From NCBI GenBank assembly GCA_018715125.1, contig DVMF01000011.1, positions 1 to 64,000 on the forward strand: a stretch of DNA of 64,000 bases, read 5' to 3'. Numbering within the stretch: position 1 is the stretch's first letter; the number at the start of each line of letters is the position of its first letter. The position numbers were made by a program, and so were the translations under genes. Positions 19,515 to 32,463 of this stretch are shown here, piece by piece. The notes under the pieces were generated by a model, which saw nothing but the letters and a program-made list of their open reading frames with translations, was not told where the DNA came from and made no database searches. Source of the stretch: Candidatus Coprousia avicola (GTDB lineage: Bacteria > Actinomycetota > Coriobacteriia > Coriobacteriales > Coriobacteriaceae).

Positions 19515-19595
19515 GCAAACAGGCCAGCGCGGATATCCGCACTGGCCTGCAACATTGCAATGGTCTGGTTGACTGGATTTGAGCCGGCGAGCTCC
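19515..19595 (-). repeat. tRNA-Pro 3'-end remnant with its own terminator (possible att site)
   Basis: About 80 nt closely resemble 32341-32420, where the intact tRNA-Pro gene ends. On the minus strand the remnant has a T-arm (with GGCTCAAATCC), a 3' acceptor strand ending in ACCA, the same downstream CATTGCAATGTTG-like spacer, and a CAGGCCAG-type terminator stem (19520-19549) with different inner bases. No D-arm, anticodon arm or 5' acceptor strand is present. The same orientation as the intact gene 12.8 kb away makes the two a direct repeat, as expected when an element integrates at a tRNA 3' end. This remnant, with tatA-upstream sequence, fills the 309-bp gap 19321-19629. Confidence 0.7.
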
Positions 19596-19629
19596 GCGAT
19601 GGCGCGCGGACGACCGCCTCTCGCGCCTT

Positions 19630-20307
19630 CTAGAGCTCAACGACCTTCGTGCCGTGGACCTCGGATACGCCCAGGGCCTCGGCGACCTGCTCGGCGTTGC
19701 CGTAGGTGATGCCGCCGCCCGGCAGGATGATGATGCGGCCCGCGGCGTGATCGATCAGGCGGCGCAGGCGCTCGACGTTGCCCATGATGGGCGTCCCCGC
19801 GGCACCGCCGTGGGTGAGGATGCGCTCGACGCCGAGCTCGGCCAGGTAGTCGATGGCCTCGAACTGACGCTCTTCGTCGAGCTCGTCGAACGCCATGTGG
19901 AACGTGACCTGCACGGGGTCCGCCGCCTCGGCGTCGCCCTTCGCCGCCTCGACAAGCCTCGCCGTCATGGCGCGGTCGATGACGGGCTCGCCGGTCGCGG
20001 GATCGGCTGTGAGGCAGCCGAAGACCACGCCCGTCGTGCCCAGGCGGCGCGCGCAGACGATATCGTCGAGCATCATCTGTTCCTCTTCCGGCGTGTAGAC
20101 GAAATCCCCGCCGCGCGGGCGGGCCATGGCCATCACGGCGACGTCGTGCTCGCCGGCGAAGGCGACGGCGGCGCGGATGACCCCGACGCTCGGGCTCGTG
20201 CCGCCCACAGCGAGGTTGTCGCACAGCTCGATACGACCCGCGCCGGCCGCGACCGCAGCGCCCACCCGCTCCATGTTCTCCGCGCAGAACTCCCTCAGCA
20301 ACGCCAT
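19630..20307 (-). CDS. cutC: CutC family protein
   Basis: 225-residue TIM-barrel protein. Family marks are the N-terminal EFCAENMERVGAA and RIELCDNLAVGGTSPS stretch, the R-P-R-G-G-DFVYTPEE segment (about 63-75) and the C-terminal GGGITYGN. CutC was named for copper homeostasis, but a metal role is not proven for most members and an enzymatic role is suspected. ATG 20307 has AGGAGG at 4-nt spacing. It is divergent from the MupG/PTS genes and closest to the tRNA remnant; its gene context suggests a link with sugar metabolism. Confidence 0.88.
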   Translation of the reverse strand: MALLREFCAENMERVGAAVAAGAGRIELCDNLAVGGTSPSVGVIRAAVAFAGEHDVAVMAMARPRGGDFVYTPEEEQMMLDDIVCARRLGTTGVVFGCLTADPATGEPVIDRAMTARLVEAAKGDAEAADPVQVTFHMAFDELDEERQFEAIDYLAELGVERILTHGGAAGTPIMGNVERLRRLIDHAAGRIIILPGGGITYGNAEQVAEALGVSEVHGTKVVEL

Positions 20308-20563
20308 GGCTCCTCCTATCGCCGTCGCGCCGCGGCATCCGGCAGCAGCGCATAACCCTATTCGTGATGGTATACCCGGGCCAGCGCGCGGAAACCCCGC
20401 GCTACGTTCACCTTCGCTGCCGCCTCGCGCGCAGACGGACGGCATCTCATCCGATTGAGTCGCCCATCCTCCGCCATTAGCATATATAGATATTGGGGAG
20501 CATGCCCGCACCGCGACCGCAGTGCACGCCGCGCCCCGCGGGCAGCAAGAGAAAGGCCGTGTT

Positions 20564-21475
20564 ATGAAGCGTCTACTCAACTGCGATACGTCCGACCTCG
20601 CGCATATGAGTCGCCAGGAGCGCCTCGACGCCATCGAGGCGAGCGAAGGGCGCGTGATCGTTCAGGAGCTCTCGCTGTTTCGCAATACCATGATGCTCGA
20701 GCCCATCTCCGATCCGGAGGTCGCCTGCGCGTTCGGTGCGGACCTCATCTTGCTGAACGCCTTCGACTGCGAGCACCCGCACATCGCCGGCATCGACTGC
20801 GAGCCGGCCGAGACCATCCGCACCCTCAAGCGCTACACCGGCCGCCTGGTCGGTCTGAACCTCGAGCCGGTGGGCGACTCCGCTATGCTCGGCGAGCAGG
20901 AGGACATGCCCGCCGGTCGCGCCGGCACCGTCGAGAACGCCCTGCGCGCCCGCGACCTCGGCTTCGACTTCATCCTGCTCACCGGCAACCCCGGCACGGG
21001 CGTCGACAACGCGACGATCCTTAAGGCCGTTCGCTCCATGCACGAGGCGGTGGGCGACACCATGATGATCTTCGCCGGCAAGATGCACGCGGCCGGCTCC
21101 AAAGACGAGGCGGGCGTGAACATCGTCTCCCGGGACATGGTCCGCGCGTTCGCCGATGCCGGCGCCGACGTCATCCTGCTGCCCGCCCCCGGCACCGTCC
21201 CCGGCGTGACCTTCGAATTCGTGCACGACATGGTCTCCTACATCCACAGCCTGGGCAAGCTCTCGCTCACGGCCATCGGCACCTCGCAAGAGGGTGCGAG
21301 CGCGGCCACCATCGAGCAGATCGCGCTCATGTGCAAGATGACGGGCACCGACCTGCACCACGTGGGCGACGCCGGCGTGGGCGGCCTGAATCCCGAGAAT
21401 CTCATGGCCTACAGCATCGCCATCCGCGGCAAGCGCCACACCTACCTGCGCATGGCCCGCTCCATCAACCGCTGA
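20564..21475 (+). CDS. predicted TIM-barrel protein of unknown function, first gene of the MupG cluster
   Basis: 303 residues with alternating beta/alpha pattern and strand-end motifs of a phosphate-binding barrel: LILLNAF, GLNLEPVGD, FILLTGNPGTGVDN, MMIFAGKMH and DVILLPAPGTVPG. No signal peptide. I recall such proteins (now given DUF numbers) beside MupG-like and lactose/cellobiose-PTS genes in Firmicutes and Coriobacteriia, but I cannot assign a reaction. The position directly before mupG and the sugar-phosphate-like barrel suggest a step on a phosphorylated amino sugar. ATG 20564 is preceded by GAGAAAGG. A 22-nt palindrome (21480-21501) follows the stop and may act as a weak terminator. 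Confidence 0.72.
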   Translation: MKRLLNCDTSDLAHMSRQERLDAIEASEGRVIVQELSLFRNTMMLEPISDPEVACAFGADLILLNAFDCEHPHIAGIDCEPAETIRTLKRYTGRLVGLNLEPVGDSAMLGEQEDMPAGRAGTVENALRARDLGFDFILLTGNPGTGVDNATILKAVRSMHEAVGDTMMIFAGKMHAAGSKDEAGVNIVSRDMVRAFADAGADVILLPAPGTVPGVTFEFVHDMVSYIHSLGKLSLTAIGTSQEGASAATIEQIALMCKMTGTDLHHVGDAGVGGLNPENLMAYSIAIRGKRHTYLRMARSINR

Positions 21476-21479
21476 CGCC

Positions 21480-21501
21480 GGCGCGGGCACGTGCCCGCGC
21501 C
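21480..21501. terminator. GC-rich palindrome after the TIM-barrel gene
   Basis: A perfect 22-nt palindrome begins 5 nt after the stop codon. It would fold as a short stem with a tight loop. There is no U-run, so it is more likely to slow or process transcripts than to end them before mupG (149-bp gap). Confidence 0.45.
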
Positions 21502-21624
21502 CCCATCGCGCCCGCACCGTCGCACCTCTCGAGATGGCTCCTCGCGATGGCGCGTGCGCACGCAAACCGGCCGCATCCGGCTGCAGGCAGCTGCCGGCGG
21601 AACCCATAAGAGAAAGGAATTACC

Positions 21625-22713
21625 ATGCATCGTCTCGGCATCTCGCTCTACCCCGAGCATTCCACCCCCGACAAGGACTACGCCTACATGGAGCTCGCGG
21701 CGGCGAATGGCTTCAGTCGCATCTTCACCTGCCTGCTCTCGGTAGAGAAGGACGCTGAGGGCACCATCGCCGAGTTCGGCGACTTCATGAAGAAGGCCCA
21801 CGAGCTCGGCTTCACGGTCGCCGTCGACACGAACGAGAAGGTCTTCGAGCGCCTGGGCGCCACCCCCTCCGACCTCACCCCCTTCAAGGAGCTCGGCGTC
21901 GACATCATCCGCCTCGACGGGCATTTCGGCGACATGGGCGACATGATGCTCACCCGCAACCGCGAGGGCATCCAAATCGAGTTCAACGGCAGCTCGAACC
22001 TGCCCATCGACCTGCTCGCCGAGCGCGGCGCCGACAAGCGCAACATGGTCACCTGCGCTAACTTCTATCCCGAGCCCTACACCGGCATGTCCGAAGAGCG
22101 CTTCTGGGAGCTCTCGTACAAATACAAGTCCCTGGGCTTCCAGACCGCCGCGTTCGTCTCGAGCCAGCAGGAGGGCACCTTCGGCCCCTGGCCGGTGTTC
22201 GCGGGCCTGCCCACCTGCGAGGACGACCGTCATCGCCCCATCGACCTGCAGGTGCGTCACATGATCGCCACCGGTCTGATCGACGACATCATCATCGGCA
22301 ACGCCTTCGCCAGCGCCGAGGAACTCGCCGCCATGGCGGCCGTCGACACGACGCGCACCACCATGCGCATCGACCTCGACGAGGGCGCAACCGAGACCGA
22401 GTGCCGCGTCCTGTGGGACTTCGACCACACCGAGCGCCCCGACTCCTCCGCCTACCTGCTGCGCTCCAGCTGGCCGCGCATGGAGTTCCGTGACACGAGC
22501 ATCCCGGCGCGCACCGCGCCTGAGGCGTTCCATCGCGGCGACGTCCTCGTGGTGAACGACAACCTCGCGCACTATCGCGGCGAGCTCCATGTCGCCCTGC
22601 GCGATATGGCCAACGACGGTTCGCGCAACCTCGTGGGCCGCATCCCCGCCGAGGAGCTCTTCCTGCTCGATTACATCAGAAGCGAGCATCCCTTCGCATT
22701 CGTGCGCGCATAG
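21625..22713 (+). CDS. mupG: MupG-family 6-phospho-N-acetylmuramidase-like protein (DUF871)
   Basis: 362 residues. Family features: GISLYPEHST near residue 5, the FSRIFTCLLS strand (about 30-40), VAVDTNEKVFERLG, IIRLDGHFG, and NFYPEPYTGMS (about 150). A TIM barrel (about 1-240) is followed by the smaller beta-rich C-terminal domain. MupG of Staphylococcus splits intracellular MurNAc-6P-GlcNAc, delivered by a PTS, into MurNAc-6P and GlcNAc. The adjacent PTS fits, but the substrate here may be another 6-phospho-disaccharide. ATG 21625 has GAGAAAGGA. Cytoplasmic. Confidence 0.85.
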   Translation: MHRLGISLYPEHSTPDKDYAYMELAAANGFSRIFTCLLSVEKDAEGTIAEFGDFMKKAHELGFTVAVDTNEKVFERLGATPSDLTPFKELGVDIIRLDGHFGDMGDMMLTRNREGIQIEFNGSSNLPIDLLAERGADKRNMVTCANFYPEPYTGMSEERFWELSYKYKSLGFQTAAFVSSQQEGTFGPWPVFAGLPTCEDDRHRPIDLQVRHMIATGLIDDIIIGNAFASAEELAAMAAVDTTRTTMRIDLDEGATETECRVLWDFDHTERPDSSAYLLRSSWPRMEFRDTSIPARTAPEAFHRGDVLVVNDNLAHYRGELHVALRDMANDGSRNLVGRIPAEELFLLDYIRSEHPFAFVRA

Positions 22714-22750
22714 CGGCCGCGCAGGGGCATCCATAGCCACCTCCCTTTCC

Positions 22751-22789
22751 ACGGCGGCGCCGTCTCCCTCATGGAGGCGGCGCCGCCGT
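22751..22789 (+). terminator. terminator-like hairpin after mupG
   Basis: A perfect 12-bp stem (22751-22762 with 22778-22789), whose 15-nt loop holds a further CTCC/GGAG pairing. It separates mupG from the regulator gene. The rest of the 438-bp gap (22714-23151) has a small dyad, TGTCGG/CCGACA at 22824-22841, and the regulator promoter; I see no gene in it. Confidence 0.55.
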
Positions 22790-23098
22790 CATGGCGCGGC
22801 CTTCTTCCCCATGACGCGACAGTTGTCGGTTTTGTCCGACATAATCTGCCGGCAGGTAAAGATCACGTAAGCCCCGCGGAGGAATGGTCGTGCATCGTCA
22901 CAAGCCGTCCGGCCCCGAAAACGAACCGTTGGGCATGGCGGCAGTTTCTCTGGCAGAGTGGGAAAATCCGCCCTTCCCGGCGCCGATGCGCCCGCATGTC
23001 GCCGTATCCCGCAACATCGCCGCAGGCCATAGCCTATGCGCACGCAATCTCGAAAACTCGTGCAGCATCGCTGCCGCGCAAACCGGCACAAAAGCGCT

Positions 23099-23127
23099 TT
23101 GAGACCTTTCGTCGTTGCCTATAGGAT
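23099..23127 (+). promoter_or_regulatory. candidate promoter of the PRD regulator-PTS operon
   Basis: TTGAGA (23099-23104), 17-nt spacer, TAGGAT (23122-23127). Transcription would start about 18 nt before the ATG. It would drive the regulator and, through tight spacing, the PTS IIA gene. Confidence 0.5.
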
Positions 23128-23151
23128 GATATGTGAAGGGATGGTGAAGGC

Positions 23152-25071
23152 ATGCAGGACACCCGATTGGTGCGACATATCCTCAAGTGCGAGGGAATCG
23201 CCCCGACTGATCTTTCTGCCTACCTGGGCACCAAGGAGCGTGCGATGCGCGACCGCATCCGGCACGCCAACGATGCCATGGGGGGCTCCGCCCTCATCGT
23301 CTACAGCCGCGCGAAGGGCGGCTACGTCGTGAAGGTGTCCGACGAGCGCGCATTCAAGTCGTGGCTCGAGGGGACCGTCCCGCGCGACCCGTTCGACCGC
23401 CTGCCCTCCACCCCGCAGGAGCGCGCCGACTACCTGCTGCAGGACCTCCTGTCGCGTTCCGACTGGATCACCCTCGAGGACCTCGCCAGCCTGCTCTTCG
23501 TCTCGCGCTCCACGATCTCGAGCGACCTGCGCCATATCGAGCAGGTGCTCGAGCGCTTCCACCTCACCATCGAAAAGCGCCCGCGCTATGGCATCCGCGT
23601 GGCGGGCGACGAGATGAACCGCCGCATCTGCCTGGCGAGCATCGCCGTCGACACGCGCCTGGCCGATGACGAGCTGTCCGGGGCCATCTCCCCCAAGATG
23701 CTCGACGCCGTGGGCGCCTGCGTGAGCGATACGCTCGAGGCCGAGCAGTACAAGATCAACCCCGTGTCGCACCAGAACCTCGTGGTGCATATCGCCATAG
23801 CCATCGCGCGCATCCGCAAAGAGTGTTACGTGCCCATGGAGGCCGCGCACCTCGAGCACGTCCGCGGCACGCGGGAATACGCCGTCGCCGGCACCGTCGC
23901 CGGTGAAATCGAGCGCCGCTTCGATATCGACCTGCCCGAGGAGGAGATCGCCTACATCGCGATTCACCTCGCGAGCAAGCACCTTGTTGAGAGCGGCAGC
24001 CCGTCGCACCTTGAGGACGCATCCGACGAGAACCTCGAGATCACCGACGAGGCATGGAACCTCGCCGCGGACATGATCGAGACCGTCTGGCGTGCGTTCC
24101 GCTTCGACTTCCGCAACGATGCCGAGCTACGCATGAACCTCGCGCGCCATACGATGCCGCTGATCGTGCGTCTGCGCTACAACATGGCCTACGAGAACCC
24201 GCTGCTGCCCGACATCAAGGCCCGCTATCCGCTGCCGTTCTCCATGGCGGCCGACGCCCTGAGCCTGCTTGCCGACCGCATGGGCGCAACGGTCTCCGAT
24301 GACGAGATCGGCTACGTCGCCCTGTTCTTCGCGCTCGCCCTGGAGCGCTCGAAGACCGAGCACGCCAAGAAGCGCGTGCTCGTGATCTGCGCGTCGGGCG
24401 CTGGCAGCGCGCGCCTTCTGGCCTACCGCCTGCAGAGCGACTTCAGTGCCGACTTCGAGCGCGTCGAGACCTGCGACGCCTCCGAGTTCGCTGACCGCGA
24501 CTTCGACGGCATCGACTACATCTTCACCACGGTGCCCCTCACCCGCCGCGTGAACATCCCCGTTGTCCACATCAGCCTGTTTCTGGACGACACGAGCCGC
24601 CGCGACGTCAAGCGCGCGCTCGACCAGGACAGCGCGGCGAGCGTGAAGACGTACTTCTCACCCGACCTGTTCTTCCCCCATCTCGCGCTGCACACGCGCG
24701 AGGAGATCATCTCCTACCTGTGCGCAGCCTGCGCCGCGCACGATGAGCTCCCCGAGAACTTCGAGGAGCTCGTGTGGCAGCGCGAGCGCGCGGCAGCGAC
24801 CTCCTTCGGCAATCTGGTCGCGCTCCCCCACCCCTACGAGGCCGTCAGCTCACGGACCTTCGTGGCTGCGGCGCTTCTCGATGACCCCGTCGACTGGAAC
24901 GGCACGCCCGTCCAGGCGGTGTTCATGATCTGCGTCGCACGCGACGCAGGAGCGGACCTCGAGGCGTTCTACCGCGCCATCGGGGGACTGCTCACCCAGC
25001 AGTCAGCAATTCAGAAGCTCATAGGCGACATGCGCTTCGATGTGCTTCTGAGCGAGTTGGAAGGAGAATAA
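23152..25071 (+). CDS. PRD-containing transcriptional regulator (LicR/MtlR type) with PTS EIIB and EIIA domains
   Basis: 639 residues. Two N-terminal winged-helix HTH regions (about 1-60 and 85-140, with DLASLLFVSRSTISSDLRHIE) are followed by two PTS regulation domains (about 150-270 and 285-395). Then come an EIIB-like domain, with Cys413 in VICASGAGSARLL, and an EIIA-like domain, with His560 in ALPHPYE. Phosphorylation of the PRD His residues by PTS components sets activity. The HTH architecture makes it a DNA-binding activator, not an RNA-binding antiterminator. The stop codon abuts the IIA start. It probably controls the PTS and mupG genes. Confidence 0.92.
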   Translation: MQDTRLVRHILKCEGIAPTDLSAYLGTKERAMRDRIRHANDAMGGSALIVYSRAKGGYVVKVSDERAFKSWLEGTVPRDPFDRLPSTPQERADYLLQDLLSRSDWITLEDLASLLFVSRSTISSDLRHIEQVLERFHLTIEKRPRYGIRVAGDEMNRRICLASIAVDTRLADDELSGAISPKMLDAVGACVSDTLEAEQYKINPVSHQNLVVHIAIAIARIRKECYVPMEAAHLEHVRGTREYAVAGTVAGEIERRFDIDLPEEEIAYIAIHLASKHLVESGSPSHLEDASDENLEITDEAWNLAADMIETVWRAFRFDFRNDAELRMNLARHTMPLIVRLRYNMAYENPLLPDIKARYPLPFSMAADALSLLADRMGATVSDDEIGYVALFFALALERSKTEHAKKRVLVICASGAGSARLLAYRLQSDFSADFERVETCDASEFADRDFDGIDYIFTTVPLTRRVNIPVVHISLFLDDTSRRDVKRALDQDSAASVKTYFSPDLFFPHLALHTREEIISYLCAACAAHDELPENFEELVWQRERAAATSFGNLVALPHPYEAVSSRTFVAAALLDDPVDWNGTPVQAVFMICVARDAGADLEAFYRAIGGLLTQQSAIQKLIGDMRFDVLLSELEGE

Positions 25072-25383
25072 ATGGACGAGCTGGTACGCATTAGCTTCCA
25101 GATCATCGCTGCAGTAGGCGGTGCCCGAAGCTCCTATGTCGAGGCCGTCGGCGCCGCCAAGGAAGGCGACTTCGACCGCGCCGACGAACTCATGAAGAGG
25201 GGCGAGGAGAGCTTCCTTGCCGGCCACGATGCCCACACCTCGCTGATCCAGCGCGAGGCCGGCGGCGACCCCGTGGCCATGACCCTCATGATCACCCACG
25301 CCGAGGACCAGCTCATGGCCGCCGAGACGTTCAAGATCGTCGCCATCGAGCTGATCGACGTCTACCGCCGTCTGGCGCAGTAG
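25072..25383 (+). CDS. PTS lactose/cellobiose-type EIIA component
   Basis: 103 residues, all-helical EIIA of the lactose/N,N'-diacetylchitobiose family. His76 in ITHAEDQLM is the phosphorylation site, and the N-terminal QIIAAVGGARSSYVEA matches the trimer helix. It accepts phosphate from HPr and passes it to IIB. ATG follows the regulator stop directly, so translation is coupled. Confidence 0.93.
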   Translation: MDELVRISFQIIAAVGGARSSYVEAVGAAKEGDFDRADELMKRGEESFLAGHDAHTSLIQREAGGDPVAMTLMITHAEDQLMAAETFKIVAIELIDVYRRLAQ

Positions 25384-25407
25384 GCGCGCCCGATCACCCG
25401 CTGCTCC

Positions 25408-25461
25408 CCGCGCAGGCAGGAGGTCTGCGCGGTTATATGTCCGTGCGGCCGCTTGAGGCCG
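25408..25461 (+). other. intercistronic hairpins between IIA and IIB
   Basis: Two short GC stems: 25408-25415 with 25425-25432, and GCGGCC/GGCCGC at 25446-25461. They lie in the 98-bp gap between co-directional PTS genes. Neither has a U-run. They probably adjust mRNA stability. Confidence 0.4.
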
Positions 25462-25481
25462 CAGACAGAAAGGAAGGGACT

Positions 25482-25817
25482 ATGGCAGACAAGAAGAAGA
25501 TCTACCTGTTCTGCAGCGCCGGCATGTCCACCAGCATGCTCGCCCAGAATATGCAGCAGGTGGGTGACTCCCACAATCTGCCGGTGGAGGTCCGCGCCTT
25601 CCCCATCGGCAAGGTCGACGAGATCGCCGCGGCCGAACACCCCGCGTGCGTCCTGCTCGGCCCGCAGGTCCACCATCAGTACGAGGAGACCAAGAAGCGC
25701 ATCGAGGGCACGTTCGACATTCCCGTCGGCATCCTCGACCAGCAGGCGTACGGCCTTATGGACGGCGAGGCGTCCCTCAAGTACGCCGTGAAGCTCATCA
25801 AGACGTACAAGAAGTAA
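25482..25817 (+). CDS. PTS lactose/cellobiose-type EIIB component
   Basis: 111 residues. Cys11 in LFCSAGMSTSML is the phosphorylated residue of the IIB fold. The remaining core (GPQVHHQYEETKKRIEG, PVGILDQQAYGLMDG) is typical of the lichenan/cellobiose class. ATG 25482 has GAAAGGAAGG; the frame is open upstream but without a site. Confidence 0.94.
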   Translation: MADKKKIYLFCSAGMSTSMLAQNMQQVGDSHNLPVEVRAFPIGKVDEIAAAEHPACVLLGPQVHHQYEETKKRIEGTFDIPVGILDQQAYGLMDGEASLKYAVKLIKTYKK

Positions 25818-25865
25818 AGACCGACATCCCCATCCCCGTGTTTCATACACGGAAGGAGGCATACT

Positions 25866-27236
25866 GTGTTTGATAAGCTCGAGAAGGTACTGATGCCCCT
25901 CGCCGAGGCAATCGGCAACAACAAGTACCTCGTCTCCATCCGCGACGGCTTCCTCATCTCCACGCCGCTGCTGATCGCAGGCTCCATCTTCTTGGTTATC
26001 GCCAACCTGCCCATCCCCGGCTTCTCTGACTGGGTGGCGAGCATCCCCATCGCCGACGGCACGCTTGCGACCTACCTGTCCAAGCCGTCCGACGCGACGT
26101 TCTCCATCATGGCCATCTTCGCCACCTTCGGCATCGCGTACAGCTACGCCAAGCAAATCAAGAGCGACTCGCTGTTCTGCGCCGCCGCGGCCCTCATGGC
26201 GTGGTTCCTCATCATGCCCTACACCGTGACCGGCACCGCCGAGGTCGGCGGCGAGGCCGTTGACGTCGCGCTCTCCGGCATCCCGCTGGGCTGGGTCGGC
26301 GCCAAGGGCATCTTCGTCGGTATCTTCAGCGCCTTCGGTGCGACCGCCATCTACACGTGGGTCAAGAACCGCGGCTGGGTCATCAAGATGCCCGCCGGCG
26401 TGCCGCCCACGGTGACCGAGTCCTTCTCGTCCCTCATCCCCATCACCGTGACCATGACGATCTTCTTCGTCATCAACGTGGTCTTCGGTCTCGCTGGCAC
26501 CAACGTGTTCGACATCGTGTTCACCTTCCTGCAGACCCCGCTGCTGGGCCTGGGCGACACCCTCGGCGCCATGATCGTGGCCTACCTGTTCCTGCATGCC
26601 TTCTGGTTCTTCGGCATCAACGGCGGTTCTGTCGTCGGCGCCGTGTTCAACCCGATCCTCCAGACGCTCGCCGCCGAGAACCTCGAGTTCTTCCGCACCG
26701 GTGTCGGTGAGGGCCACATCATCTGCCAGCAGTTCCAGGACCTGTTCGCCACCTTCGGCGGCTGCGGCTCCACCCTCTCGCTGCTGATCGCCATGGTCCT
26801 GTTCTGCAAGTCCGCCCGTATCAAGCAGCTGTCCCGCCTGGCGTTCATCCCCGGCGTCTTCAACATCAACGAGCCGATCGTCTTCGGTCTGCCCATCGTC
26901 ATGAACCCGGTCATCATCATCCCGTTCGTGCTGGTGCCGACGCTCAACATCATCATCTCCTACTTCGCCATGGACTGGGGCATCGTGCCCATCTGCTCCG
27001 GCGTCCAGATCCCGTGGACGATGCCGCTCGGCATCTCCGGCCTGCTGGCCACCAACTGGGTGGGCGGCGTCCTGCAGATCCTGCTGCTGATCATGGGCGT
27101 CTTCATCTACCTGCCCTTCATCAAGACCATCGACAACCAGTACCTGCATGACGAGCAGCTGGCTGCCGAGCAGGCCGCCAACGAGCCCGACGAGGACGAC
27201 ATCGACCTCGACGACCTGTCCTTCGACGACCTGTAA
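25866..27236 (+). CDS. PTS lactose/cellobiose-type EIIC permease
   Basis: 456 residues with about ten hydrophobic segments. The substrate-binding region has the conserved FWFFGINGG (about residue 245) and NINEPIVFGLPIVMNP (about 335-350) motifs of the Lac/Cel family. An acidic tail rich in Asp (about 440-456) ends the protein. It translocates and phosphorylates a disaccharide or amino sugar. With MupG next door, MurNAc-GlcNAc or a chitobiose-like sugar is the leading inference. Confidence 0.94.
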   Translation: MFDKLEKVLMPLAEAIGNNKYLVSIRDGFLISTPLLIAGSIFLVIANLPIPGFSDWVASIPIADGTLATYLSKPSDATFSIMAIFATFGIAYSYAKQIKSDSLFCAAAALMAWFLIMPYTVTGTAEVGGEAVDVALSGIPLGWVGAKGIFVGIFSAFGATAIYTWVKNRGWVIKMPAGVPPTVTESFSSLIPITVTMTIFFVINVVFGLAGTNVFDIVFTFLQTPLLGLGDTLGAMIVAYLFLHAFWFFGINGGSVVGAVFNPILQTLAAENLEFFRTGVGEGHIICQQFQDLFATFGGCGSTLSLLIAMVLFCKSARIKQLSRLAFIPGVFNINEPIVFGLPIVMNPVIIIPFVLVPTLNIIISYFAMDWGIVPICSGVQIPWTMPLGISGLLATNWVGGVLQILLLIMGVFIYLPFIKTIDNQYLHDEQLAAEQAANEPDEDDIDLDDLSFDDL

Positions 27237-27294
27237 GATGCACGGACGCGCCGGGGTCCCCGGCCCCGGCGACCGCGCGCACCTGCTCTTCTGA

Positions 27295-27347
27295 GCATTG
27301 CCGCCCGCGTTTCCCCGGCAATGCCGACGGATACGCGGGCGGTTTTC
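27295..27347 (+). terminator. terminator with a competing upstream hairpin (attenuator-like)
   Basis: Terminator stem 27301-27310 with 27333-27342, followed by TTTTC. A second 9-bp stem, 27295-27303 with 27316-27324, uses three bases of the same left arm and part of the loop, so both cannot form fully. The structure lies between the PTS IIC and glycosylasparaginase genes and could set relative expression of the two halves of the cluster. Confidence 0.6.
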
Positions 27348-27407
27348 GATGCGGGCCGTATCGGCCTGCATCAGCAAGCGCAACCCCTACAGAGGCAAGG
27401 AGTAGTC

Positions 27408-28460
27408 ATGTGGGGCATCATCGCAACCTGGAGGATGGCACGCGAGGGCGTTGAGAAGGCCGCGGCATCGCTCGCCGCGGGCGGCAACGCCGCCGACGCC
27501 ATCGAGATGGCCGTACGCGAGGTCGAGGACTTCCCGTACTACAAGTCGGTGGGCTTTGGCGGCCTTCCCAACGAGGACATGCAGGTCGAGCTCGACGCTT
27601 CGTTCATGAACGGCGACACGCTCGAGTTCGGCGCCGTGGGCGCGGCGAAAAACATCGCCAACCCCGTGAGCGTCGCCCGCGCGCTCGCCCACGGCGACGC
27701 CAACAACCTGCTTGTGGGTGCCGGTGCCGAGAAGTTCGCCGACGAGATGGGCTTCGAGCGCAAGAACATGCTCACCGACCGCGCCAAGATCCATTACGCC
27801 CGCCGCGTCGCCGAGGAGGGCGGTCGCCTTCCCAACGCCGCACGCGTGCTGGGCGAACCCGAGGCCGAGCAGGAGACCGCCCGCGGCGCCATGCCCGAGA
27901 AGGAAACGCGGCCGGGCATCGACCAGGAGGGCACTGATCCCTGCGGCCACGACACCGTGGGCATGGTGTGCCTCGACGCGACGGGCACCATCACGGCGGC
28001 CACGTCCACCAGCGGCCTGTTCATGAAGCACGCCGGCCGCGTGGGCGACTCCTCCATCCCCGGCGCCGGCTTCTACGCCGACTCCGACGCGGGCGGATCT
28101 GCCTCCACGGGCCTGGGCGAGGACGTCATGAAGGGCTGCGTGGGCTACGAGATCGTCCGCCTCATGAGCGAGGGCATGCATCCGCAGCAGGCCTGCGAGA
28201 AGGCGATCGCCGCCTTCACCGCGACGCTCGTACGCAAGCGCGGACATGCAGGTGACATCAGCTTCGTGGCGATGGATGGCCAGGGCCGCTGGGGCGCGGC
28301 GAGCAACATCGAGGGCTTCTCGTTCGTCGTTGAGACCGAAACCGAGCCCGCCTGCGTGTACCTGGCGCACCCGCAGCCCGACGGGACCTGCGCGCACGAG
28401 GTCGCGAGCCAGGAGTGGCAAGACGAGTACATGCGTTCCCGCATGGCGCCTTTGACCTAG
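27408..28460 (+). CDS. N4-(beta-N-acetylglucosaminyl)-L-asparaginase / isoaspartyl peptidase family enzyme
   Basis: 350 residues, Ntn-hydrolase asparaginase-2 family. Autocleavage and catalysis are expected at Thr183 in CGHDTVGMV; GGSASTGLGE and the SGLFMKHAGRVGDS segment belong to the beta-subunit. Residues 1-182 would be the alpha chain, with a charged insertion (about 140-175) before the cleavage site. There is no signal peptide, so it acts in the cytoplasm, unlike the periplasmic or lysosomal relatives. The reaction would be release of GlcNAc or ammonia plus aspartate from GlcNAc-Asn. The neighbourhood (PTS, MupG, dipeptidase) favours glycosylasparaginase over plain isoaspartyl peptidase. 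ATG 27408 has AAGGAG. Confidence 0.87.
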   Translation: MWGIIATWRMAREGVEKAAASLAAGGNAADAIEMAVREVEDFPYYKSVGFGGLPNEDMQVELDASFMNGDTLEFGAVGAAKNIANPVSVARALAHGDANNLLVGAGAEKFADEMGFERKNMLTDRAKIHYARRVAEEGGRLPNAARVLGEPEAEQETARGAMPEKETRPGIDQEGTDPCGHDTVGMVCLDATGTITAATSTSGLFMKHAGRVGDSSIPGAGFYADSDAGGSASTGLGEDVMKGCVGYEIVRLMSEGMHPQQACEKAIAAFTATLVRKRGHAGDISFVAMDGQGRWGAASNIEGFSFVVETETEPACVYLAHPQPDGTCAHEVASQEWQDEYMRSRMAPLT

Positions 28461-28502
28461 CACCTCCGCCGCCATATCGTTTCCATCCGTAAAGGAGTTG
28501 TC

Positions 28503-29717
28503 ATGAGCAGCACCGACTGCCTTGAGAACGAGGAACATATCGCTATCGACGCCGCACTCGAAGAGCGCATTCTCGCTGAGGTCGACGCCATCTCGGACGA
28601 GATGATCGACGCCATCCGCGCCATCGTGCGCCAGAAGAGCGTCCAGGGGGATGCCGCCGAAGGCGCACCCTTCGGCACCGACGTTCGCGCCGCCCTCGAC
28701 CAGACGCTCGCGCTCTGCCGCAAGCTCGGCTTCGAGACCTGCGACGTCGACGGATACATGGGCTACGCCACCTGGAAGGCCGAGCCCGGCTCGAACGGCG
28801 AGCCGGTCCTTTCCGGATACGTGTGCGCCCTCGGCCACCTCGATGTCGTGCCCGAGGGCACGACCGGCTGGAAGGTCCCGCCCTACAGCGCGCATCTGGA
28901 GGACGGCCGCATCACGAGCCGCGGCGTCCTCGACAACAAGGGTCCCATCTATGCGTGCCTCTACGCGCTGTGGGCCCTGAAGCGCCTCGGCCTCACCCCG
29001 CGCCGCGACGTCCGCATCATCTTCGGCTGCAACGAGGAGACCGGCTTCGGGGACCTGCGCTACTATCTTGAGCACGAGCCCGCACCGGTCATGGGCTTCA
29101 CACCCGACTGCAAGTACCCCGTCGTGTACGCCGAGCGCGGTCGCATGGGGGTCCGCATGACCGCCCGACCCGATGAGAGCGAGGATCGCGAGGCCCTGCT
29201 CGCGCGCTTCTTCGCGTTCATGAACGAGTACGTGCTGAACGCCAAGCCGAACGGCGAGCGCTTCGGCGTGGACTGCACCGATCCCGAGTTCGGCATCACC
29301 GAGGTGCGCAACTACAAGCTCGTCATGCACGAGGGCGCGCCCGCCGTCGAGTTCGCCATCAGCTACCCGGCGGCCATGACCGCCCAGGAGCTGGAGGAGC
29401 GCCTCACCAAGGTCGCCGACAAGCAGAAGCTCTCCTTCGAGGTCACCGGCAACTTCAACCCGGTGCGCTTCGAGAAGGACTGCCGCCTCGTGCGCACGCT
29501 CGTCTACACCTACGAGCACGCCACCGGCGCCGACGGCTCGCCCGTCACCACCACCGGGGGCACCTATGCCAAGCTCATGCCCAACATCGTCCCCTTCGGC
29601 CCCTCCTTCCCCGGCCAGAAGGGCATCGGGCATCAGCCCAACGAATGGATGGACGTAGCTGATATCATCACCAATGCCAAGATCTACGCGCTGAGTCTCT
29701 ATCTGCTCTCGCGGTAA
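28503..29717 (+). CDS. M20 family dipeptidase (Sapep/PepV-like)
   Basis: 404 residues. Metal-site motifs: GHLDVVPEG with His112 and Asp114, and NEETGFGD with Glu178 (general base) and Glu179. The lid domain is present between. Sapep/PepV enzymes hydrolyse dipeptides in the cytoplasm with two Zn or Mn ions. It lies 42 bp after the asparaginase gene with its own AAAGGAG, so it probably finishes degradation of imported short peptides or glycopeptides. Confidence 0.9.
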   Translation: MSSTDCLENEEHIAIDAALEERILAEVDAISDEMIDAIRAIVRQKSVQGDAAEGAPFGTDVRAALDQTLALCRKLGFETCDVDGYMGYATWKAEPGSNGEPVLSGYVCALGHLDVVPEGTTGWKVPPYSAHLEDGRITSRGVLDNKGPIYACLYALWALKRLGLTPRRDVRIIFGCNEETGFGDLRYYLEHEPAPVMGFTPDCKYPVVYAERGRMGVRMTARPDESEDREALLARFFAFMNEYVLNAKPNGERFGVDCTDPEFGITEVRNYKLVMHEGAPAVEFAISYPAAMTAQELEERLTKVADKQKLSFEVTGNFNPVRFEKDCRLVRTLVYTYEHATGADGSPVTTTGGTYAKLMPNIVPFGPSFPGQKGIGHQPNEWMDVADIITNAKIYALSLYLLSR

Positions 29718-29723
29718 GAGCAC

Positions 29724-29757
29724 GACGTCTGGCGGGAGCGTTCCCGCCAGACGTCGG
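29724..29757 (+). terminator. strong hairpin between dipeptidase and RDD genes
   Basis: A perfect 15-bp stem (29724-29738 with 29743-29757) around a GCGT tetraloop, 7 bp after the dipeptidase stop. No U-run follows; it may act as a processing or factor-dependent site. Confidence 0.55.
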
Positions 29758-29791
29758 CGCGACCGCATGACCCGATCCGAACGGACGTGAT

Positions 29792-30448
29792 ATGAGTTCC
29801 AAGAAGAACAAGAAGAAGCGCCATCACCCTAACGCGCAAGCGGCTGACGCACCCGAGGCGCAGGCCTCCCGTGCGACCAAGACGGTCACGAAGTTCACGG
29901 ACCGCGCAGGAGCCCCCGCCCCGGTGACCCGCCGCTTCTTCGCCTATCTCATCGATTGGTACGTCGGCGCCCTGTGCACGGCCATCCCCATCTCCATCAT
30001 CGCCTACCAGACGACCGGAGATATGGCCAACCAGTACCTCACCGACTTCCCCTCCCCGTTCGGTATCGTCGCCGGCGTGCTCGCGCTGCTGTTCGCCTTC
30101 GCGTACTACATCGGGATCCCGCTGTTCGTCTGGCGCGGCCAGACGCCCGGCAAACGCCTGTGCGGCATTAAGATCGTGCGCTTCGACGGTGCCCCCGTCG
30201 ACTTCGGCCATCTGGCGCTCCGCCAGATCGTGGGCGTGACGATCATCGAGGGTATCATCGCCAACGCGAGCGCCATCTGGCATCAGATGCTCACCATCGC
30301 CACCGGCATCAACTTCGTCCACCCGCTCATGTACGTGGGCTTCGCCGTCACGCTCGTGAGCTGCATCATGATCCTCGTGCGCAAGGACCATCGCTGCCTG
30401 CACGACTTCATCGGGGATACCAAGGTGGCCCTAGTCGAGAAGGCTTAG
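29792..30448 (+). CDS. RDD family membrane protein
   Basis: 218 residues. A Lys-rich N-terminus (about 1-45) is followed by RRFFAYLIDWYVGAL with the family Arg/Asp/Asp pattern, three or four hydrophobic helices, and WRGQTPGKRLCGIKIV (about 120-135). RDD proteins are small integral membrane proteins, some with ion-antiport activity. The substrate is unknown here. The ribosome site before ATG 29792 is weak. Confidence 0.85.
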   Translation: MSSKKNKKKRHHPNAQAADAPEAQASRATKTVTKFTDRAGAPAPVTRRFFAYLIDWYVGALCTAIPISIIAYQTTGDMANQYLTDFPSPFGIVAGVLALLFAFAYYIGIPLFVWRGQTPGKRLCGIKIVRFDGAPVDFGHLALRQIVGVTIIEGIIANASAIWHQMLTIATGINFVHPLMYVGFAVTLVSCIMILVRKDHRCLHDFIGDTKVALVEKA

Positions 30449-30554
30449 GGCGGCCGCGCGCTGAGCCGGACGGCATGAGGGAGCACCCATGTCGTATGCC
30501 ATCGCGCATCCGGAGTTGTTAGTCGCAACCACTGCGTCAAGAAAGGAAACCACT

Positions 30555-31076
30555 ATGAAAATCGTCATGATCTACGACCAGATCCAGTCCGGCCTCGGCG
30601 CCAAGGACGACCGCAACCTGCCGCTCGGCATCCTGAAGGAGCCGGTCGGCCCCGCGGTCATGATGGAGAACCTGCTCAAGCAGGTAGGCGGCAAGGTCGT
30701 CGCCACGCTCTACTGCGGCTGGGGCACCTATGCCGACAACCCCGACGAGGTCGCCCGCAAGCTCGAGGCCATGTGCGTGAAGATCAACCCCGATGTCGTC
30801 ATGTGCGGTCCCACCTTCAATTACGCCGAGTACGCCGAGATGGCATGCCGCATCGCCTCAGACCTCGAGGCGGGCGGCAAGGTTCACGCGATCGCCGCGG
30901 TGAGCCAGGAGAACACCGACGCCATCGCCAAGTACAAGGACAAGGTCCTCATCGTCAAGACCCCCAAGAAGGGCGGCACCGGCCTGAACGAGTCCCTGAA
31001 GAACATGTGCCTCGTCGCCAAGGCCCTTGTCGACGGCACCGACACCACCGAGCTCAAGCAGAAGGCATGCTTCTAA
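30555..31076 (+). CDS. GrdB-like protein (glycine/betaine/D-proline reductase component B N-terminal domain)
   Basis: 173 residues. The sequence resembles the N-terminal portion of GrdB: IVMIYDQIQSGLG near the start, GPAVMMENLL, the CGWGTY and VVMCGPTFNYAEYAEMAC stretches and the C-terminal IVKTPKKGGTGLNESL. Full GrdB is about 430 residues and contains selenocysteine; this protein stops early and has no in-frame TGA. Five Cys residues remain. Stand-alone versions are known in gut anaerobes without a settled role. ATG 30555 has GAAAGGA. The next gene starts 1 bp after its stop. Confidence 0.78.
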   Translation: MKIVMIYDQIQSGLGAKDDRNLPLGILKEPVGPAVMMENLLKQVGGKVVATLYCGWGTYADNPDEVARKLEAMCVKINPDVVMCGPTFNYAEYAEMACRIASDLEAGGKVHAIAAVSQENTDAIAKYKDKVLIVKTPKKGGTGLNESLKNMCLVAKALVDGTDTTELKQKACF

Positions 31077-31077
31077 G

Positions 31078-32169
31078 ATGACTGATCCCAAGACCTCTTC
31101 TTCCAAGAACAGGCGCCGCCGCGCCCACGAGGTCTCGAGCGAGCGGCGGCGCGCCCGTCGTCAACGTGCCGTCGAGCACCTGCACGAGGAGCGCGCCGCC
31201 AAGCAGGCGGCCGTCATGGAGCAGCTCGAGGAGGTTCCCGAGGAGCCCCTCTTCACCTTCCCCGAGGTCAAGGTCGACCTCAAGGCGGAGATGGAGCGAC
31301 TGAAGAACTTGCGCCGCTTCGTGTTCATCCGGCGCTGCATGACGCTCGCCTCGGTGGTGCTCTCCGCCCTCATCCAGGCCTACACCATCCAGGCGTTCGT
31401 CAATCCGGCGAACCTGCTCTCGAGCGGCTTCACGGGCCTCGCCATCCTCATCGACCGCATCACGTCGCTGTTCGGCTTCTCCTTCCCCACCTTCGTGGGC
31501 ATGGTGGCGCTGAACATCCCCGTGGCGCTCATCTGCTGGAAGTCCATCAGCCGCCGCTTCGTGGTCTTCTCGATGATCCAAGTGTTTCTCGCCTCGTTCT
31601 TCCTGCGCGTGTTCACCTTCCAGCCGATTGTCGACAACCTCATGCTGCAGGTGATCTTCGGCGGCTTCCTATACGGTTTCGCCATCGCGGTGGCGCTGCG
31701 CGGCGGCGCGAGCACCGCTGGCACGGACTTCATCTCGCTCATGGTGTCCAACAAGACCGGTCAGTCCATCTGGGGCCTGATTTTCGCGGGCAACTGCGCG
31801 GTGCTCCTCATCTTCGGCGCCCTGTTCGGCTGGGAGGCGGCAGCCTACTCCATCATCTTCCAGTTCATCTCCACCAAGGCAATCGAGATGTTCTACACCC
31901 GCTACGACCGCGTGACGCTGCAGATCACCACGACGCGCCCCCAACAGATTCTTGCGGACTACAACGAGATCCACAAGCACGGGTCCTCTGTCGTGGAGGT
32001 CATGGGCGGCCGCAGCCGCAAGCGCTACTGGCTGATCACCACCGTCGTATCCTCGTACGAGATCGACGACATCATGCACCTCATCCGCGTGCACGATGGC
32101 AGCGCGGTGGTGAACGTCTTCCGCACGGAGAATTTCTTCGGCAACTTCTACCGCGCCCCCATCGACTGA
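31078..32169 (+). CDS. YitT family (DUF161/DUF2179) membrane protein
   Basis: 363 residues. An Arg/Glu-rich cytoplasmic N-terminus (about 1-80) precedes five or six transmembrane segments with the FVNPANLLSSGFTGLAILI and RGGASTAGTDFIS motifs, then a soluble DUF2179 domain (about 275-355) ending EIDDIMHLIRVHDGSAVVNV. The transported molecule is unknown. Start ATG 31078 follows the GrdB-like stop by one base; AGAAGG lies 11 nt upstream, so translation is probably coupled. Confidence 0.9.
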   Translation: MTDPKTSSSKNRRRRAHEVSSERRRARRQRAVEHLHEERAAKQAAVMEQLEEVPEEPLFTFPEVKVDLKAEMERLKNLRRFVFIRRCMTLASVVLSALIQAYTIQAFVNPANLLSSGFTGLAILIDRITSLFGFSFPTFVGMVALNIPVALICWKSISRRFVVFSMIQVFLASFFLRVFTFQPIVDNLMLQVIFGGFLYGFAIAVALRGGASTAGTDFISLMVSNKTGQSIWGLIFAGNCAVLLIFGALFGWEAAAYSIIFQFISTKAIEMFYTRYDRVTLQITTTRPQQILADYNEIHKHGSSVVEVMGGRSRKRYWLITTVVSSYEIDDIMHLIRVHDGSAVVNVFRTENFFGNFYRAPID

Positions 32170-32223
32170 GGCGGGTCGGACCGACCCCGGCCCCTCGCGC
32201 GACGGCACACCGACCGCACGGCA

Positions 32224-32272
32224 GCCTCCCATCGCCCGGACTCGACGCGTCCGGGCGATGGGAGGCTTTTTT
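32224..32272 (+). terminator. intrinsic terminator after the YitT gene
   Basis: A perfect 17-bp GC-rich stem (32224-32240 with 32250-32266) followed by TTTTTT. It marks the end of the PTS/glycopeptide gene block. Confidence 0.95.
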
Positions 32273-32342
32273 CATTCCGTAACCGGTCCCGTCGCGCCGA
32301 GCGGACAGGGATACAGTTGAGGGTTAACACCGCCTTGATAGC

Positions 32343-32375
32343 AAAACAGGCCAGAGGAAATATCCCTCTGGCCTG
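32343..32375 (-). terminator. terminator of the tRNA-Pro gene
   Basis: A perfect 11-bp stem (32347-32357 with 32365-32375), 7-nt loop, followed on the minus strand by TTTT. A related hairpin follows the tRNA remnant at 19520-19549. Confidence 0.85.
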
Positions 32376-32386
32376 CAACATTGCGA

Positions 32387-32463
32387 TGGTCGGGTTGACT
32401 GGATTTGAACCAGCGACCCCCGCGTCCCGAACGCGGTGCTCTACCAAACTGAGCCACAACCCG
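32387..32463 (-). tRNA. tRNA-Pro (anticodon CGG), CCA encoded
   Basis: 77 nt including CCA. The 7-bp acceptor stem pairs 32457-32463 with 32391-32397; discriminator A. D-arm GCTC/GAGC; anticodon stem CCGCG/CGCGG with loop TTCGGGA, giving CGG; T-arm with TTCAAAT loop. It is the right boundary of the putative island, which lies at its 3' side. Confidence 0.95.

Follow-up and report, generated by a model that had tools for sequence, protein, structure and literature searches.

A horizontally acquired metabolic island associated with a duplicated tRNA-Pro(CGG) 3' end in Candidatus Coprousia avicola

The gene order ispE - tRNA-Pro - tatA - greA - lysS is conserved among relatives of Candidatus Coprousia avicola (family Coriobacteriaceae), and in the window (the whole stretch of 64,000 nt analysed here) a block of metabolic genes lies between the tRNA and tatA. 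The locus raises the question of whether this block was inserted at the tRNA and, if so, from which source and by which route. The initial annotation had described a nutrient island bounded by direct repeats of the tRNA-Pro 3' end; ARAGORN and a blast search of the own genome confirmed the repeats, and the coordinates first given were right to a few bases.

The window contains a single tRNA, tRNA-Pro(CGG), which was located by ARAGORN (Table 1). When region 32341-32463 was compared with its own genome by blast, positions 19517-19598 matched the tRNA repeat with 85% identity over 82 nt (E 8.5e-20). This was the only such copy of the tRNA-Pro 3' end with terminator in the 2.42-Mb draft genome, and the remaining matches were ordinary tRNA-like sequences on other contigs. 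The repeat copies (19517-19598 and 32344-32424, with 19599-32343 between them) contain the final 38 nt of the tRNA, which start at the first nucleotide past the anticodon loop and end with the CCA, and about 43 nt with a terminator hairpin, CAGGCCAG...CTGGCCTG. The hairpin was found at two places in the own genome, both of them here, and a search with shuffled sequence gave 0 matches; the next-best match to the 38-nt tRNA end in the window reached 22/38. In the direction of the tRNA, the intact gene and its terminator come first, followed by 12.7 kb of DNA, the tRNA 3' fragment, a terminator and tatA. Such an order and orientation are those of an island at the 3' end of a tRNA, as the initial annotation had proposed. 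When the repeats were joined in silico, a tRNA accepted by ARAGORN was obtained, which was identical to the intact gene at 77/77 positions in the closest relative (G006) and at 72/77 here, where the fragment carries 5 mutations, and the distance to tatA became 240-241 bp, an ordinary empty-site length. Given the perfect 77-nt tRNA in G006 and the normal distance to tatA, the tatA-side copy is best read as the original tRNA 3' end. Exact duplication of the tRNA 3' end was found in only 2/299 genomes of the order; the other one is G071, whose second tRNA copy was rejected as an island end, being a full-length tRNA at another locus. One spacer base after the CCA differs between the window's genome (G000) and G006 but is common to both copies inside each genome, which hints at gene conversion between the two repeats.

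Table 1. Positions of the repeats, the acquired block and its genes in the window
Feature	Position	Strand	Basis or remark
Displaced tRNA-Pro 3' fragment, 38 nt (33/38 identical here, 38/38 in G006)	19561..19598	-	
Second terminator hairpin, tatA side	19517..19560	-	Fragment end to tatA 240-241 bp, like empty site
Horizontally acquired block	19617..32169	.	92.6% identical full length to Collinsella tanakaei An368 (L069); trees
cutC-family gene	19630..20307	-	PF03932
DUF7916 protein	20564..21475	+	PF25509
MupG/GH170-type 6-phosphoglycosidase	21625..22713	+	PF19200+PF05913; PDB 1x7f
PRD/EIIA transcription regulator	23152..25071	+	PF00874, PF00359, PF05043
PTS EIIA, lactose/cellobiose type	25072..25383	+	PF02255
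PTS EIIB, lactose/cellobiose type	25482..25817	+	PF02302
PTS EIIC, lactose/cellobiose/chitobiose type	25866..27236	+	TIGR00410 over cut-off; PDB 3qnq
Glycosylasparaginase (Asparaginase_2), HDTVGM nucleophile motif	27408..28460	+	PF01112; best PDB matches glycosylasparaginases, E 1e-50
Sapep/PepV-like M20 dipeptidase	28503..29717	+	TIGR01887 over cut-off
RDD-family membrane protein	29792..30448	+	PF06271
GrdB-related protein without selenocysteine	30555..31076	+	NF041545 over cut-off
YitT-family-like membrane protein	31078..32169	+	Name from sequence reading; conserved as cluster part
Insertion-sequence end remnant, 44 bp, outer terminus abutting tRNA terminator	32293..32336	-	89% to terminus of multi-copy IS in G009
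Terminator hairpin of intact tRNA, tRNA-side half of repeat	32344..32386	-	
Intact tRNA-Pro (CGG)	32387..32463	-	ARAGORN; Rfam RF00005 66 bits

Of the 61 relatives in which both anchors were located, 45 had no more than 500 bp between the tRNA and tatA, one had 662 bp, and the other 15 had 850 bp to 12.3 kb. Empty sites, with 139-331 bp between tRNA and tatA, were present in more than 40 relatives, including two genomes of the same genus, G002 and G003; in these two the gap is 173 bp, which confirms the empty site that the initial annotation had predicted. That annotation had also named two patterns that would speak against an island, and neither occurred: gene order varies among relatives, and the repeat is not scattered, its only further copy in the own genome being 19517-19598. 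Where the gap is occupied, the cargo is unrelated, and a tRNA fragment was found only in the window's genome and G006. In G001 (L045), the gap is filled by another PRD/PTS cluster, which includes a GH4 enzyme gene, and in G004 (L047) the start of a similar PTS cluster was found. G016 (L056) carries an M20 peptidase with a DcuC-type carrier, G012 (L057) a like-looking set, and G005 a resolvase-domain protein with a pilin-like protein. The tRNA-Pro/tatA gap is thus a family-wide hot spot for cargo. Around this gap, some further observations were made. G016 and G012, which belong to one genus, both have the M20 peptidase, together with carrier and LuxR-type regulator genes that resemble each other; between rph and rdgB of G005, on the opposite side of the same neighbourhood, lies a single MupG-type gene (L155:13497-14576); and in G070 (L209), the segment with tRNA-Pro, ispE and veg has an inverted orientation with respect to tatA-greA-lysS.

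The source of the block was indicated by DNA alignment and by trees. Its alignment with Collinsella tanakaei An368 runs in one piece, from a point 19 bp inside of the fragment to the stop codon of yitT, at 92.6% identity, compared with 74-78% for the flanking genes. The cluster proteins share 95.2% identity with An368 and 82% with the copies in the same-genus G003 and G007, whereas the core proteins share 78% with An368 and 90% with G003. In the core tree, the window's genome groups with G006 and then with G003/G007/G002 (100% support), while in the cluster tree it groups with An368 (100% support). Since the two trees conflict at full support, horizontal transfer follows, and the comparisons identify the C. 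tanakaei lineage as the source and the ancestor of G000 and G006 as the recipient. Composition gave no signal (the GC content was 0.654 inside the island and 0.647 and 0.673 on its two sides). G006 has kept both repeats, and all that is left between them is DUF7916, MupG, pieces of the regulator and the C-terminal part of yitT; this cargo is 94-98% identical to that of the window, with at least four gaps. The alignments thereby mark the G006 locus as the same island after deletions.

The same cluster was also found at other loci. In the donor clade, its locus is a different one, and the stretch examined there contains no tRNA; G002, G003 and G007 have a diverged copy (79% DNA identity) at a second locus, whose flanks are joined directly (about 94-150 bp) in G000, G006 and G005. 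Direct repeats flanking the cluster were not found at the second locus in G003. The PTS/glycosylasparaginase cluster thus moves in one piece and reaches different sites. The same gene set, reordered, is present in the Bacillota (for instance in Thomasclavelia, Lachnospiraceae, Clostridium, and in part Enterococcus), and part of it in Leptotrichia; judged from these sequences, the cluster is conserved in Coriobacteriia and Bacillota. A glycosylasparaginase (47.6%) in an unannotated 161-kb Enterococcus phage record was set aside as irrelevant to the transfer at this locus.

The enclosed genes form a coherent PTS/glycosylasparaginase cluster between housekeeping genes, as the initial annotation had stated. 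Searches of gene content and protein families revealed neither an integrase nor a relaxase nor a phage gene within the island or next to it, which bears out the reported lack of an integrase; by gene content, the block has none of the conjugation, mobilization or phage genes of an ICE, IME or prophage. In Lacticaseibacillus casei, a glycosylasparaginase whose gene cluster also contains pepV is used for fucosyl-GlcNAc-Asn (PMC6960285), and the use of diacetylchitobiose involves a PTS with a MupG-family enzyme (PMC12791066). From these precedents we infer, as a working guess, that the cargo probably serves PTS import and cleavage of N-glycan stubs with Asn, namely the GlcNAc-Asn or chitobiose-Asn stubs of N-glycoproteins. 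A literature search found no paper on this exact cluster.

The insertion, its foreign origin, both repeat ends and the later deletions are directly supported by these comparisons, and for the route we propose the following. In the common ancestor of G000 and G006, the complete 12.55-kb cluster, cutC to yitT, would have come from a Collinsella tanakaei-like donor and been inserted at the tRNA-Pro(CGG) 3' end. The tRNA would have remained intact because the incoming DNA brought a new 3' half and terminator; the original 3' half, together with its own terminator, would have been displaced and left beside tatA. Recombination at the tRNA 3' end by an enzyme of the tyrosine-integrase type, since lost or provided in trans, would be the likeliest mechanism; we infer both the enzyme and the vehicle. 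Because identity begins past the anticodon loop, the crossover site would lie 3' of that loop, in the T arm or the 3' end, in line with the att classes of PMC4383910. Afterwards the island would have been fixed and decaying, as the fragment mutations here and the loss of most cargo in G006 suggest. The precise scar argues for recombination of the integrase kind, and we assign the account as a whole a probability of about 0.6. Against an integrase stand the cluster at another locus of G002/G003/G007 without flanking repeats and the other cargo in the same hot spot without a tRNA fragment; the element would also be unusually tidy, stripped to bare cargo on both sides. No tyrosine integrase was found at tRNA-Pro in the 16 genomes checked (15 of them relatives), no duplicated tRNA end together with an integrase in 299 genomes, no attP-like copy or exact tRNA 3' end in viral contigs, and no donor with a tRNA-flanked cluster. 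The plasmids searched did not contain the island, and the phages searched gave only generic tRNA-Pro genes. Of the initial reading, the acquisition of foreign DNA at a tRNA 3' end therefore stands on the empty sites, the identity to An368 and the trees; integration as an element at an attB site and a domesticated or satellite-type nature stay hypotheses, considering the missing integrase at the tRNA, the missing attP-like viral copy, the cluster at tRNA-free loci and the scarless other cargo.

The scarless cargo in the same gap, together with near-identical hairpins beside different cargo, makes homology-assisted capture a serious rival, which we consider possible but doubtful. Here, tRNA-Pro, identical in most of the family, and its conserved surroundings would have offered imported DNA a place to recombine, either homologously or by homology-facilitated illegitimate recombination, with no integrase ever involved; one end would have paired at the tRNA 3' end and terminator and the other would have been joined by chance, giving the duplicated 3' end. 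Such capture would suit the 15/61 gaps with different cargo, no integrase and no repeat outside G006. The near-identical hairpins by different cargo in G001, G007, G016 and G021 suggest tRNA-anchored exchange, and hairpin type is weakly associated with gap occupancy (p 0.02, with classes chosen post hoc after seeing the data). However, the duplication runs exactly from the edge of the anticodon loop to the CCA and restores a perfect tRNA, which is integrase-like and would rarely arise by chance joining. A wider idea, that the tRNA-Pro(CGG) 3' end and shared hairpin of the Coriobacteriaceae are a port through which catabolic clusters are swapped between genera without a resident integrase, seems to us rather improbable. 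As to the hairpins themselves, the 30-nt terminator hairpin 3' of tRNA-Pro is identical in G007, G001, G021 and G016, which represent three genera (L040, L045, L055, L056); the cargo beside it differs, and ispE is only ~60-75% alike among these genomes.

The 170 bp from the cluster to the tRNA terminator are not donor DNA and contain a second hairpin and the insertion-sequence remnant, whose end is the sole copy in the own genome. The matching element in G009 codes for a zinc-ribbon protein of 361 aa, the sequence of which resembles a transposase of the IS1595 type. The cluster might have come with such an element, leaving the 44-bp end, the tRNA repeat being older or unrelated; the terminus placed against the tRNA terminator and the intact multi-copy relatives in G009 would fit. 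However, only a single end is present, with no second end near 19600 and no target duplication seen, and such a move makes no tRNA repeat, so that we regard it as very unlikely; the remnant may be a later visitor. Least credible is a tandem tRNA-Pro duplication with one decayed copy and an ancestral cluster in between, for which the similar terminators on both copies would speak and which is contradicted by the empty sites in most relatives, the foreign phylogeny of the block and the abrupt start of the fragment at the anticodon stem in both genomes.

Insertion by tRNA 3'-end recombination remains our preferred account. The locus documents operon transfer between genera of gut Coriobacteriaceae cleanly and with full bracketing: donor clade, empty site, scar and decay can all be seen. 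A largely unstudied PTS/glycosylasparaginase cluster, common to Coriobacteriia and Bacillota, moves whole to several chromosomal sites, and the tRNA-Pro/tatA gap, as a hot spot of metabolic cargo, would be useful when mining these genomes.

Among known systems, the tRNA islands of the Islander class (PMC4383910) share with this locus an intact tRNA and a displaced 3' fragment in the same orientation, on the correct side and 2-200 kb apart, as well as empty sites in relatives. The tRNA/fragment layout, the empty site and the horizontal origin were all found here; unlike in that class, there is no tyrosine integrase gene inside, and no attP or mobile relative is known. Under the strict Islander filter the block is not a member, though it carries the scar of one. 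Cis-mobilizable elements, the att-flanked remnants without an integrase, likewise hold cargo between att-like repeats and no mobility genes; here, no parent element with the same att sequences was found, and any mobilization would be hypothetical. The cargo recalls two Lacticaseibacillus clusters: alf-2 (PMC6960285), with a glycosylasparaginase and a PepV-like peptidase, and chb (PMC12791066), with a cellobiose-type PTS and a MupG/GH170 enzyme. The glycosylasparaginase family enzyme with conserved nucleophile motif, expected of an alf-2-like GlcNAc-Asn cluster, is present. In contrast to both, there is no fucosidase and no sugar kinase here, the substrate is a predicted one, and all functions stand in one cluster, together with cutC, GrdB-like, RDD and YitT-like genes and a PRD regulator. 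The 12.6-kb block is therefore a real, horizontally acquired, tRNA-associated genomic island without an integrase, of a familiar kind, and its tRNA scar is genuine.
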